A stretch of DNA of 64,000 nucleotides from Telopea speciosissima (Eukaryota > Streptophyta > Magnoliopsida > Proteales > Proteaceae). Positions 31,300 to 47,278 of the stretch are shown here, piece by piece. The DNA lies in NCBI RefSeq assembly GCF_018873765.1, contig NC_057926.1, positions 50,397,043 to 50,461,042 on the forward strand. The letters are read 5' to 3'. The position numbers and the translations under genes are program-made. The first letter of the stretch is position 1. Every line of letters begins with the position of its first letter. A model generated the notes under the pieces. That model was not told where the DNA came from. It was given only the letters and a program-made list of their open reading frames with translations, and searched no databases.

Positions 31300-34200
31300 A
31301 TGGCGGATGCAGATGAAATGGCGGATGCAGATGTTCAACCTTCCCAGAGCGAAAAGTTGTCGAAGCTTAAATGCTTGGTGGAAGGTCTTGATCAGATTAC
31401 GTACGTAGCTATTCAAAGCTTTCTTTTATTTTTTGTTGATTCTGAAGCTGAATCGATTTGCTTTGGTTTCGATGCATGAAATATGTTTTAGAAGTTCGGA
31501 TTTGTTGTTGTTGGTCTGGGACAGTTGCACAGTGGCTACAGGGCTTCACGGTCATTCAAAACGACTTAAAAACACATCAGCTAAATACCTGTTATTAGGA
31601 GTTCTTCCCATTTCTCACACTTTTCAGTCTCTGTCATTCACTTCTCTTTTCTCTCGATTTCGAACTTTTTTTCTCTCTCTAATGGGTACAGATCTTCACC
31701 CTTCCGAGAATGATTGCTAACTGAAGGCCTTAATCAGATCACGTACTTAGCTCTTTAAAGCTTATCGATCGGAATCGATTTGCTTTGGTTTCAATGCATG
31801 AAGTTTGTTCTAATAGTTCGGATTTGTTGTTTTTGATCTGCGTTGAAGCATAACATCTTAGATAAGCTTTTACTTATTGTATTTGTACTGCTTTTGGCAG
31901 TGAGAAGGAGCGAGTAGGATTCATCAGTCTTGTAACTCGTTATATGAGGTAGAGTTATAGGATTTGATTTGATTTGATTTGTGTATTTGTCATTTTTCTT
32001 AACTTGTCACTGACCGTTTGGTATGAGTTGTTAATTGAAGTGTTAAAGCTCAATACATTGATTGGGGGAGCATACAGAGTCCTACTAATGTTGTTCCATA
32101 CGACAAACTACCTCCTTCTCCTGAAGGTAACTTGTTGTGGTTCTTTTTGATGAATTCATATTTTTGGCATTCATGATCGTGTGAGTCTTTATCTTGTCCT
32201 CCAGGATTTTAGGGGAGAGAACACAGATAATGTGTGGGGTAATTGGTTGACTTAATATAGATCGGTGATTGTTTTTGTATACGGGATCCTCCATTTAAGG
32301 TCTCTGTTTTGGTTGTATGTCATCCTTTCATAGGTTGCATCCTTTTGTATAAGCATTAATACAGATTACAGAGTTTCTACTTATTTTGAAACACCCCTCC
32401 CCCCCCCCTCCCCCCAAAAAATAAAAAAAAGAAAAAAAGAAAAGAGAAGAAACATTATACAAAATCCATCAACTCTGCTGATACTATCCAGCTATGTGAT
32501 GAAGAAAAATCAGATAAAATGGGCTTATTTTAGGGGAAATAAGCCTTGTGTTGGGCTTTTGGTTCAATGGATTTTCATTGTCATAGCCTACTTTAATGTG
32601 CCTAAGATATGGGTAGGAGGTATTTTAGTTGGTTTGGATTAGGTCTGTATGAGTCCAACCTTGTTTAAGTTGTTTCTTTCTTATTTTATTCAGAGTTTAG
32701 CAGCAGTAGACTACCTCCATAGCAAACTATTGTCTAGAGGAGTTTTAGGCTTAGTTTGTGTCCTGTTTACAGTCGTTTGTAATCGTATGCAAGGGCTACG
32801 TCTGTTGCACGGGTGAGATCAGCTATGTTTGATTTGGCTTGATTTCAAAATCAATGTCCTGGATTTGTATTTGTTAATTGGGAGCATTATATAGGATACC
32901 TTTTAAAAATTAGAAATAGACTAGTTTTTAATTTGTTTGTGGGGCCCAAAGGTTAGAAGTATAGGGCAGGTATTATTTTATTTTGTAAGTAGTTTATTTA
33001 GGTAAAGGTATTCATGGGGTTCCAGTTTGAAAGCTTCTTCTTTACCTTGCGCGTCAGAATTTCGTGGCTAGATTTTAGGAGTTCATTGTTGGAATATCTA
33101 GTGATATACATGTAAAATTTGTATGGGGCGGTGGATATCAATTCTTATAAGAGCATATTTATAATTTTATTTCTTTCTCATATAAGCTAGTATCATATGA
33201 GTAGGAGTTGTAAGGGAATAGGGGTGCCAGAAATAAACTTTTTATCCATAAATCTTACCTCATGCAACATTAGGGGATTCAAACTATTATAAGAGGACTC
33301 ACAACCGCAACCTCTTAAGAAAATCAGCACATGATCAAGCTAGTGAAAACACAAGTTGATGAGTAATCCCTCGAACAACTCTGCTGATAAGTTGGTTAGA
33401 TCAGGAGTTTCATGGGATTCTTTGTATTTGGACACCTCTCCAGCTATGTGATGCAGAAAAATCAGATAAAATGGGTTTATTTTAGGGGAAATAAGCCTTG
33501 TGTTGGGCCTTTTGTCCAATGGATTTTCATTGTGATAGCCTACTTTAATGTGCCTAAAATATGGGTAGGAGGTAGAATATGCCTAAGACCCAGATCAATC
33601 TGCTATCTGGAAGCTGACAAGGCACTCATGCTACCATTATTATTTTAATATTTCTCTGTCAATTCCTTATTCGGAGCTCTTAGTTTCAATATAATCTAAT
33701 TATACACTAGTGGAACTCTGAGAATACGAGCCTTGTACAATTTGCTTACAGTGTATTTACTTTGCACATTACTTCAAATGCACTGAAGCTTTGTATAGTT
33801 GAAGCCTAAAAATGTGCAGCTGTCCAACTGTGGGTTACTGGTGCCAATATGGTTTGACATTTTTAACATTGTTGAGTATTTGCTTTGCACATTCTTAATA
33901 ACCTTTGACTTTAGTTCCTGATTAATAAATTAATGCAGATATATCGGACAGGAAGAATATCTTAGAGAAGCTAGTCGTACTGAAGCTCAATGGAGCTTTA
34001 GGAACTAAATTGGGCTTTAGTGGTCCCAGGTAACATCTTTGGCCATTTTTTTGAAATTGTGGTTGATTAAGTTGGCATGGAGTGAGAATCTATATTGGCC
34101 ATATAATGGTTAAGTTTCCAAGGGTAGACATCTATTTTATGTTTACTTCTAAAATGTTTATAAAGTGTAAACTTTTTATTTTCTGCTTTATTACAGGTCT

Positions 34201-46200: not shown

Positions 46201-47278
46201 AATCATATATATTTTTTGGTTTAACTGGAGGCATTATTTTCCATAGAGAATTCCTCCTGGTTCCAGCGAGTCGTATCCGGAAAAAGATTGTGACATTATG
46301 TTGGAAGATGAGGATGGTAAGCTACACGTAGTAAAATTCCTTCTTAAACACTTGGCTCTCAGCGGCGGATGGGGCCAGTTCACTAAGAAAAAGAAGTTGA
46401 TCGTTGGAGACGCACTATTTTTTCAAATAGTCGAACCTACCAAATTCAAGGTGATGCACATATGTCCTGTAACTTTGAAATTGGATTAATTTTTCCGGAC
46501 CAATGTTGGTAAGAGTTGAGCTTTTGATGGTTTTGAGATTCAATCTTCACATCAGATTTTTTTTTTTTTTCGCTATAAAAACACCAATTCTGATTAACTT
46601 TGCTTTTTAATATAGGAGATCATTATAAGGGGAGATGGTTTGAGTGATGCTGGAGTAGCTAATGATCTTACTGCTAGGGTGGCAACTCCTCATGCTGGTG
46701 ATGAGGAGGCGCCTCTTGTTGGCGATGTTAGTTGTAGGTCATTTTCGACACAAGATACTTTCTTTCCGGCGCCAGGATGGTCATTCTTCTCCCAGGGGAG
46801 GGAAGTGCCCATCCTACGCCCGTCTTCCGTAGTCATCGGATATCCTTGCGGATATGAAGCTGTAAGTGCCTTGACATCGTTTTGAATTTGCTTTTCCTTT
46901 CTTTGCAATGGCTGACCATCGGTTTTTTTTATGCAGGTACCTGGCCAGAGGTACGATGACTTGTTGCAAATGGTTGCCAGCCTGAAAGAGCTTGCCGCGT
47001 CGCAAAGCGAGAGGATCCTCCAACTGGTAGGTGGATTATTGTTGTATTGCTACCTGCAGTACATAATGGATGATGCTAATGTTTGATATGCGATGTAGGA
47101 GGCTGCTTTGGCTGCTCCCCAGCCTAACCCGACTACCGAGCTGGCCACCGTGGACAAGGATGATAGGGGACAGCCAACCCAGGCTGCCGAGCCGGCTAAC
47201 ATGGACAAGGATGACAGGGGACAGCCTAACCCGGTTACCGAGCTGGCTACTGAGCACAAGGATGACACGGGACAGTAG
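31300..47278 (+). CDS. UDP-glucose pyrophosphorylase-B3 DNA-binding domain chimeric gene, 23 exons
   Basis: Exons: 31300-31400, 31901-31948, 32041-32126, 33939-34029, 34197-34257, 34365-34442, 34536-34586, 35198-35271, 35469-35541, 35647-35704, 35876-35922, 35991-36056, 36386-36418, 36621-36673, 45199-45274, 45354-45410, 45506-45589, 45681-45770, 46020-46148, 46247-46450, 46616-46861, 46937-47026, 47099-47278. All phases agree and no stop occurs (691 residues). Residues 1-409 are UGPase (UTP + glucose-1-P to UDP-glucose): [16 protein letters not shown] (89-104), [38 protein letters not shown] (229-240), NTNNLW (303-308), INVPRSRF (359-366). The C-terminal beta-helix is absent. Residues about 436-525 are a B3 domain: [42 protein letters not shown]. 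Then a linker, a short helix and a three-fold charged repeat. Substrate-loop changes (A98, G202, K343) question catalysis. One GC-AG intron (after exon 6). Intron 14 is 8.5 kb of nested retrotransposons. It could instead be two merged genes; transcript data would decide. Confidence 0.78.
31540..31850 (+). repeat. Decayed duplicate of exon 1 and its flanks inside intron 1
   Basis: This stretch repeats the sequence around exon 1 (about 31165-31500): the leader TTCGAACTTTTTTTCT, an ATG, CTTCACCCTTCCGAGA (compare CTTCCCAGAGCG), a LeuAsnGlnIle remnant before ACGTAC, and the intron start with GATTTGCTTTGGTTT. The copied exon has a stop after 12 codons (ATG at about 31681) and several deletions, so it cannot replace exon 1. 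Confidence 0.75.
32489..33574 (+). repeat. Pair of ~133-bp direct repeats in intron 3
   Basis: Copies at 32489-32621 and 33440-33574, both starting CAGCTATGTGATG and ending ATGGGTAGGAGGT, about 95% alike and 950 bp apart. Possibly remnants of LTRs or of a segmental duplication; no element could be defined. Confidence 0.7.
36714..37095 (+). repeat. Copia 5' LTR
   Basis: Starts TGTTAGAGTGTGTATTATGG, ends CTCTCA, and is followed within 6 bases by the TATCAGAGC primer-binding-like sequence. Contains a plausible TATA-poor promoter and CT-rich leader. Confidence 0.65.
38358..39664 (-). mobile_element. L1 LINE, 5'-truncated, inserted in the copia element
   Basis: The minus strand encodes the C-terminal part of an L1 reverse transcriptase protein: [18 protein letters not shown] thumb sequence, then a zinc-ribbon zf-RVT region ([18 protein letters not shown]), with frame breaks. 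Its 3' end is a poly-A-like tract (T-rich on the plus strand at 38356-38376). GGGAACTAGTT flanks both sides (38347-38357 and 39665-39675), showing that it inserted into the copia element. Confidence 0.85.
41228..43252 (+). mobile_element. L1 LINE, 5'-truncated, with 18-bp target duplication
   Basis: Reads the thumb ([31 protein letters not shown]), the WKLWNF/GDKWLP block, the zf-RVT zinc ribbon ([18 protein letters not shown]) and an RNase-H-like end ([20 protein letters not shown]), with frameshifts and stops. It ends in an A-rich tail and is flanked by exact 18-bp copies of ATAAACTCTTCTTTATTG at 41210-41227 and 43253-43270. Defective, but its boundaries are clear. Confidence 0.92.
44681..44752 (-). 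mobile_element. SINE 3' fragment
   Basis: Reverse complement of the last ~72 bp of the SINE at 25040-25213 (CACCACTGTGGGGTCTGGGG matches CCCCAGACCCTGCAGTGGTG). Within intron 14 of the UGPase-B3 gene. Confidence 0.75.

Follow-up and report, generated by a model that had tools for sequence, protein, structure and literature searches.

A stretch of 64,000 nucleotides (nt) of the Telopea speciosissima genome (contig NC_057926.1, here C11, positions 50397043-50461042; hereafter the window) carries, at 31300-47278 of its forward strand, a putative chimeric gene in which a UDP-glucose pyrophosphorylase (UGPase) sequence is followed in the same frame by a B3 DNA-binding domain. For this gene, hereafter the fusion, a first-pass annotation made from the sequence alone had proposed 23 exons and one frame of 691 residues. 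Joining these exons rebuilt that model exactly, giving 2076 nt and 691 amino acids without an internal stop, and 21 of the 22 introns were of the GT-AG type, the remaining one (after exon 6) being GC-AG. At the DNA level the frame is contiguous and phase-matched with intact splice sites, and the window is free of N. When the fusion protein was compared with the whole window, no further UGPase or B3 sequence scored better than E 0.9. Genomic comparisons were made within the plant's own 823-Mb genome (1287 contigs).

Domain content of the fusion

The Pfam model UDPGP (PF01704) matched residues 40-416 with 456.9 bits (cut-off 22) over profile positions 3-385 of 413, and the closest solved structures of the fusion protein were the sugarcane and Arabidopsis UGPases, which bears out the earlier assignment of exons 1-18 to this enzyme. 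The Pfam model B3 (PF02362) matched residues 437-519 with 34.9 bits (cut-off 30.1); this part includes a basic run, KKKK, at residues 499-502, and its solved relatives are weak only (VRN1, E 0.12; TEM1, E 0.26). Exons 19-23 had been assigned to B3 as a whole, which is correct for exons 19 and 20 and the first 54 nt of exon 21, but the rest is largely a tail of mobile-element and repeat sequence. The new two-domain protein that had been proposed hence stands as a genomic UGPase-B3 join with its frame kept, but the chimera has three parts.

Sources of the three parts and the joins between them

Two canonical UGPase genes were found in the same genome, at C11:48.06M (2.4 Mb from the fusion) and on contig C6 (C6:51.21M), both with exons 1-18 open and followed by pieces of the C-terminal exons. 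Exon-by-exon alignment placed the borders of fusion exons 1-18 exactly at those of both genes. A tuning of the exon borders to preserve the frame was rejected since they are identical in the two paralogues, and a processed (intronless) retrocopy or pseudogene was rejected since the introns are retained. In the region of exons 5-18 the fusion agrees with the C11 gene at 90% of the intron sites (567 differences in 5833) and at 86% of the exon sites (126 in 901). Around exons 2-4 the introns differ at 101 of 500 sites (20%, against 10% elsewhere) and the exons at 48 of 225; this region is older than the remainder, and the gene may therefore be a mosaic.

Homology to the C11 gene begins 134 nt 5' of the ATG (blastn), where the start of the fusion is duplicated in tandem (repeat pairs 31157-31296/31544-31680 and 31450-31518/31772-31840). 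The second copy of exon 1 carries an in-frame stop and now lies within intron 1, and therefore the upstream copy provides the intact first exon. Intron 14 is long, as is the intron at the same position of the canonical C11 gene (4.6 kb). UGPase similarity ends within intron 18, at 45989 against the C11 gene and at 45997 against a UGPase fragment at C4:26.36M, and C-terminal UGPase exons are absent from the window, where searches for them returned chance matches only. These alignments show exons 1-18, introns included, to be a diverged duplicate of the canonical C11 gene. Partial UGPase copies are also dispersed at C3:63.660-63.664M, C4:26.36M, C7:27.89M and C11:7.047M. The piece at C11:7.05M and the exon-4 copies on C7 have derived changes in common with the fusion, and some of the change therefore predates the separation of the copies.

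The B3 part is related to genes clustered at C4:18.24-18.31M and to the locus C11:41.84M, with DNA identities of 71% for two loci and 63% for a third. Similarity to B3 genes starts at about 46013-46015, runs to 46566 and continues from 46577 to 46669, and the exon borders are common to the fusion and the C4 genes. The acceptor position of exon 19 is that of the C4 B3 gene, in phase 0, which matches the phase 0 end of UGPase exon 18. One alignment, that with C11:41.84M, extends back to 45989, though it is weak ahead of the exon, and that locus has no clear acceptor at this place. Within intron 18 the join was narrowed to some 20 nt; a search with the junction region gave eight scored matches in the 1287 contigs, and the window alone spans the junction. 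A stretch of 4.9 kb ahead of the exon in the C4 B3 gene gave no match between 31300 and 46012 and matched the window solely at 21497-21764 and 56623-56726, of which the former also matches a second place in the C4 B3 locus. Since no 5' part of a B3 gene was found ahead of exon 19, these alignments identify the join as one of intron to intron, between the UGPase copy and a B3 gene without its 5' part.

The second join lies within exon 21, where the B3 sequence passes into that of a repeated plant-mobile-domain (PMD) element; this join is in frame, and in the element's own frame. Similarity to the element starts at 46669 in one fetched copy and at 46747 in most copies, and the frame and introns of exon 22 and the element-derived part of exon 21 are the same as in two aligned copies. 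At the DNA level 37 of the 40 scored matches fall within 46747-47105 of the window, and the other three are the window's own sequence and two B3 introns. A protein search gave 173 matches, of which those listed lie in the tail, save the window's own and nine in the B3 domain. One element copy, where read upstream, encodes a PMD (PF10536, at 48.8 bits against a cut-off of 34.9); the tail itself matched no Pfam family, and the fusion carries it without the PMD domain. About 6 nt of exon 23 derive from the element, and the remainder consists mostly of three in-frame 51-nt repeats (47120-47275). The C4 B3 gene apparently continues with a DUF724-like region (28.2 bits, below the cut-off of 38.4). 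Much of the last ~150 residues is thus of mobile-element origin, which the first-pass annotation had not recognized. PMC7156037 and PMC5418596 deal with PMD proteins as transposon-related, as judged from the excerpts of both that were available. The three sources of the fusion and the join are established by these comparisons, and chance is excluded because all three parts are homologous at the DNA level to separate loci. The coordinates are given in Table 1.

A second conserved open frame, containing MDKALSSW, accompanies the PMD elements (L046:6370-6906 and L052:8298-8978 on the forward strand, L051:8374-8874 on the reverse complement); the one copy tested matched no Pfam family.

Table 1. 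Features of the UGPase-B3 fusion, in positions of the window.
Feature	Position	Strand	Basis
5' flank/untranslated region common with the canonical UGPase gene	31166-31299	+	blastn against the canonical C11 gene
Exon 1, intact copy, start codon	31300-31400	+	
Second copy, in tandem, of exon 1 with its 5' flank and the beginning of intron 1	31544-31840	+	
Exons 2-18, UGPase N-terminal and catalytic domains	31901-45770	+	Pfam, exon alignment
Exons 2, 3, 4	31901-31948, 32041-32126, 33939-34029	+	
Exons 5, 6, 7	34197-34257, 34365-34442, 34536-34586	+	
Exons 8, 9, 10	35198-35271, 35469-35541, 35647-35704	+	
Exons 11, 12, 13, 14	35876-35922, 35991-36056, 36386-36418, 36621-36673	+	
Intron 14 (8.5 kb)	36674-45198	+	
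Exons 15, 16, 17, 18	45199-45274, 45354-45410, 45506-45589, 45681-45770	+	
Intron 18, chimeric, holding the join	45771-46019	+	
Exons 19, 20, B3 domain, from the B3 gene	46020-46148, 46247-46450	+	
Exon 21, chimeric (B3 gene/PMD element)	46616-46861	+	
Exon 22, repeated element	46937-47026	+	
Exon 23, stop codon	47099-47278	+	

Within intron 14, positions 40200-43240 hold remains that, from their motifs, we take to resemble copia-type and LINE-type (long interspersed nuclear element) retroelements. An inverted repeat in intron 7 (34646-35123) is also present in the canonical C11 gene and matches several other places in the genome. Outside the fusion, a long inverted repeat at 28922-30102, with 138-nt arms that are 83% complementary and an outer pair of 31-nt arms at 97%, resembles a miniature inverted-repeat transposable element or a foldback element. 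The neighbouring open frames at 57607-58816 (+) and 60169-60744 (-) presumably encode an F-box protein and a BPA1-like protein, respectively.

State of the enzyme active site

The fusion was aligned with its two paralogues and with the sugarcane, Arabidopsis, yeast and human enzymes. The C-terminal domain with its RFKSIPSI motif is lost, the profile match stopping at position 385 of 413; Lys360, which we take to be essential in UGPase, is retained. Columns invariant in the other sequences are changed by G88A, K99R, H192G, V255G and 23 other replacements, and at 52 of the remaining 186 columns it departs from a residue on which the C11 and C6 proteins agree. Nine of the 11 UDP-glucose contact residues of the Arabidopsis enzyme, as listed in the available portion of PMC5832301, are retained, including all uridine and glucose contacts; two of the three phosphate contacts are replaced (Lys99 by Arg, His192 by Gly) and Lys256 is retained. 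The NB-loop signature LX2GXGTX6PK, as quoted in an excerpt of PMC8222925, is broken twice, by G88A and K99R. Because of the losses in the NB-loop and among the phosphate contacts, together with that of the C-terminal domain, normal UGPase activity of the fusion appears unlikely. Nucleotide binding by the degenerate UGPase domain may persist. Neither the missing domain nor the changed active-site residues had been part of the first-pass annotation.

Rates of change and integrity of the frame

Pairwise comparison of the fusion with the C11 gene gave a synonymous divergence (dS) of 0.308 and a non-synonymous divergence (dN) of 0.160, with a ratio (w) of 0.52 (bootstrap 0.37-0.75); the ratio between the C11 and C6 genes is 0.10. 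When changes were polarised with the C6 gene, w on the C11 branch was 0.11 in exons 1-4 and 0.06 in exons 5-18, and on the fusion branch 0.24 and 0.98, respectively. Constraint on most of the enzyme sequence is gone, or nearly so. The B3 half gave pairwise ratios of 0.55 and 0.42 against two C4 genes; a Ka/Ks check over both halves had been suggested in the first-pass annotation.

Changes unique to one lineage accumulated at the same rate in the introns (fusion 65, parent 61, in 1562 sites), but number 105 in the fusion and 15 in the parent over 901 exon sites, those of the fusion falling on codon positions 1, 2 and 3 as 43, 32 and 30. With the introns as the yardstick, non-synonymous change in exons 5-18 is raised 2.6-fold in odds (P 2e-7) and synonymous change 2.7-fold (P 7e-4). 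In pairwise counts for exons 5-18 the fourfold sites (12/93) do not differ from the introns (567/5833; P 0.29) and codon positions 1 and 2 (79/602) do (P 0.01); over all exons the fourfold sites (28/127) differ as well (P 6e-5). Exons of the B3 half differ at 110 of 335 sites against 29 of 157 in its introns (P 9e-4), an excess which, without an outgroup, is not assignable to the fusion branch. Decay of CpG sites is an unlikely cause of the fast exons, given that transversions make up 49 of 105 changes in exons against 22 of 65 in introns; the exon excess also persists at both GC sites (59/336 vs. 32/312) and AT sites (46/491 vs. 33/817). The excess suggests selection for change plus a further factor, since selection on the protein leaves the faster synonymous sites unexplained, and positive selection is not put forward as a firm claim because synonymous sites also exceed the introns.

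No stop codon has arisen: about 133-170 random substitutions produced a mean of 5.2-6.6 stops and none in 0.5-0.1% of trials, and the share of trials with none was 1.4% with 105 substitutions and 9% with 60. Frame-breaking insertions or deletions are likewise absent, although 5.3 are predicted when half of the gaps in introns are assigned to one lineage (P of none 0.005), and the splice dinucleotides are intact in 34 of 34 cases (P 0.03 at an assumed 5% change). Exons 2-18 contain two gaps, one of 6 nt and one of 9 nt; of the 63 gaps in introns, 8 have a length divisible by three. Pieces of two dispersed copies served as the lesion control. In the C3:63.66M copy (1738 bases read) the acceptor position of exon 11 is lost, with an AG 1 nt later, as is the donor, and in the C11:7.05M copy (430 bases read) a single nucleotide is deleted from exon 6 and the acceptor of exon 7 is lost.

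Interpretation and alternative explanations

We lean, with caution, towards a young chimeric protein gene formed by intron-to-intron joining. A duplicate of the C11 UGPase gene, from its 5' end to intron 18, would have been placed ahead of a B3 gene lacking its 5' end, and the 3' end of the B3 gene would have been replaced by the 3' exons of a PMD element. In favour of this reading count the closely mapped join with its acceptor position and phase 0 kept, the lack of B3 upstream sequence between 31300 and 46012, the unbroken frame and splice sites beside the lesions in pieces of two related copies, and the faster change of exons than of introns in the fusion lineage, which the parent does not show. 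A single spliced transcript would be the simplest product, because the start lies on the UGPase side and there is no B3 5' end. We infer that both halves are transcribed together, that the frame is under selection and that the protein acts in the nucleus. If expressed, the product would most likely be a B3 nuclear DNA-binding protein in which the former enzyme part might serve as a partner-binding or possibly a nucleotide-binding module. A coupling of the UDP-glucose or UTP level to transcription, as raised in the first-pass annotation, is no more than a possibility with which the nine retained contact residues would be compatible. Its bolder form, in which the degenerate UGPase domain would bind UDP-glucose or UTP without turnover and control DNA binding by B3, as a sugar-nucleotide sensor on chromatin with selection-driven fast change in both halves, seems improbable.

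Several observations weigh against a maintained chimeric gene. The ratio of 0.98 in exons 5-18 of the fusion lineage is that expected of an unconstrained copy, and the synonymous sites of these exons have accelerated too. The fusion is changed at 27 of the 170 columns that are invariant from plants to yeast and human, against 0/170 for C11, 1/171 for C6, 1/171 for sugarcane and 2/172 for Arabidopsis when each is left out in turn. Exon 1 differs from the parent by gaps of 21, 2 and 1 nt, and its frame is saved solely by their sum; no TATA[AT]A occurs in the 400 nt upstream of the ATG. The B3 score of 34.9 bits is low beside the 65.9 bits of the matching part of the C4 paralogue, and the partial UGPase copies on C3, C4, C7 and at C11:7M show that such relics are common in this genome. 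The fusion may accordingly be such a relic, a dispersed UGPase duplicate beside a truncated B3 gene, under no selection and with its frame intact by youth, which we consider unlikely but the most serious alternative. The ratio near 1, the changes at conserved active-site residues with the loss of the C-terminal domain, the decay of two related copies in the pieces read and the mobile-element tail would all suit a relic, but the zero count of stops, frame breaks and splice lesions, the exon 2-18 gaps in multiples of three and the two in-frame joins, the second in the element's own frame, would not. The earlier argument that the intact frame speaks against a dead relic is hence strengthened by the freedom from lesions, the size of the gaps and the broken state of the pieces read of two related copies, but weakened by the near loss of constraint in the enzyme half.

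The remaining alternatives concern how the two halves relate. An in-frame ATG at 46053 in exon 19, just ahead of the B3 domain, would allow transcription in two units, one giving a truncated UGPase transcript that stops after exon 18 and the other a B3 transcript that starts from this ATG; but what separates the halves is UGPase-derived intron as far as 45989-45997, exon 19 starts at the acceptor position of the C4 B3 gene, and with no B3 5' end found there two units would require a new promoter. We therefore rejected two separate genes as the leading view and hold this arrangement to be of low probability. An active UGPase tethered to chromatin by its B3 domain would agree with the nine retained UDP-glucose contacts and Lys360, but is highly doubtful in view of K99R, H192G, G88A, V255G and the 23 further changes at columns invariant in six sequences, and of the missing C-terminal domain. 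Equally hard to credit is a false assembly join at 45.99-46.01 kb between paralogous loci that in fact lie apart: the junction is known from one assembly, but the window has no gap or N, the phases fit at the join and the B3 side runs on into a second in-frame join.

Read as a young chimeric gene, the locus would be a new multi-domain gene caught in the making, with the parent gene, the B3 relatives and the element tail all traceable and each join in frame. Should the gene be expressed, it would offer a test of whether the fold of an enzyme, once released from catalysis, turns into a regulatory part of a DNA-binding protein.

Comparison with known systems

The first-pass annotation knew of no described UGPase-B3 protein, and none was found here among the matches listed when open-licence full texts were searched for the pair; UGPase in combination with chimeric gene and exon shuffling likewise returned nothing from these texts. 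The pairing of UGPase with B3 brought up a transcriptome paper (PMC8590779, available in part), and a survey of the UGPase family (PMC8222925) contains in the available portion of its main text no mention of 'B3 domain' and a single use of 'fusion'.

With the canonical plant UGPases (PF01704; Arabidopsis 1z90/2icx, sugarcane 5weg, the C11 and C6 paralogues) the fusion has in common the N-terminal and catalytic domains, the uridine and glucose contacts and, for the paralogues, the borders of exons 1-18; it differs from them in that the C-terminal domain is replaced, the NB-loop broken, His192 lost, constraint relaxed and a B3 domain attached. Exons 19-20 and the start of exon 21 are common to the fusion, the B3 cluster at C4:18.24-18.31M and the locus at C11:41.84M, but unlike the C4 B3 gene the fusion has no B3 5' part and no DUF724-like region. 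The PMD (PF10536) elements, present at 37 other places in the genome, have the same frame and introns as exon 22 and the preceding element-derived part of exon 21, but the fusion has their tail alone and not the PMD domain. Young chimeric genes arise by exon shuffling or duplication, the jingwei type of Drosophila being an example. The fusion resembles this type in the joining of genes through introns, the new pairing of domains and the fast evolution of the protein, and differs from it in its partners, namely an enzyme of metabolism, a domain of plant transcription factors and the tail of a mobile element.

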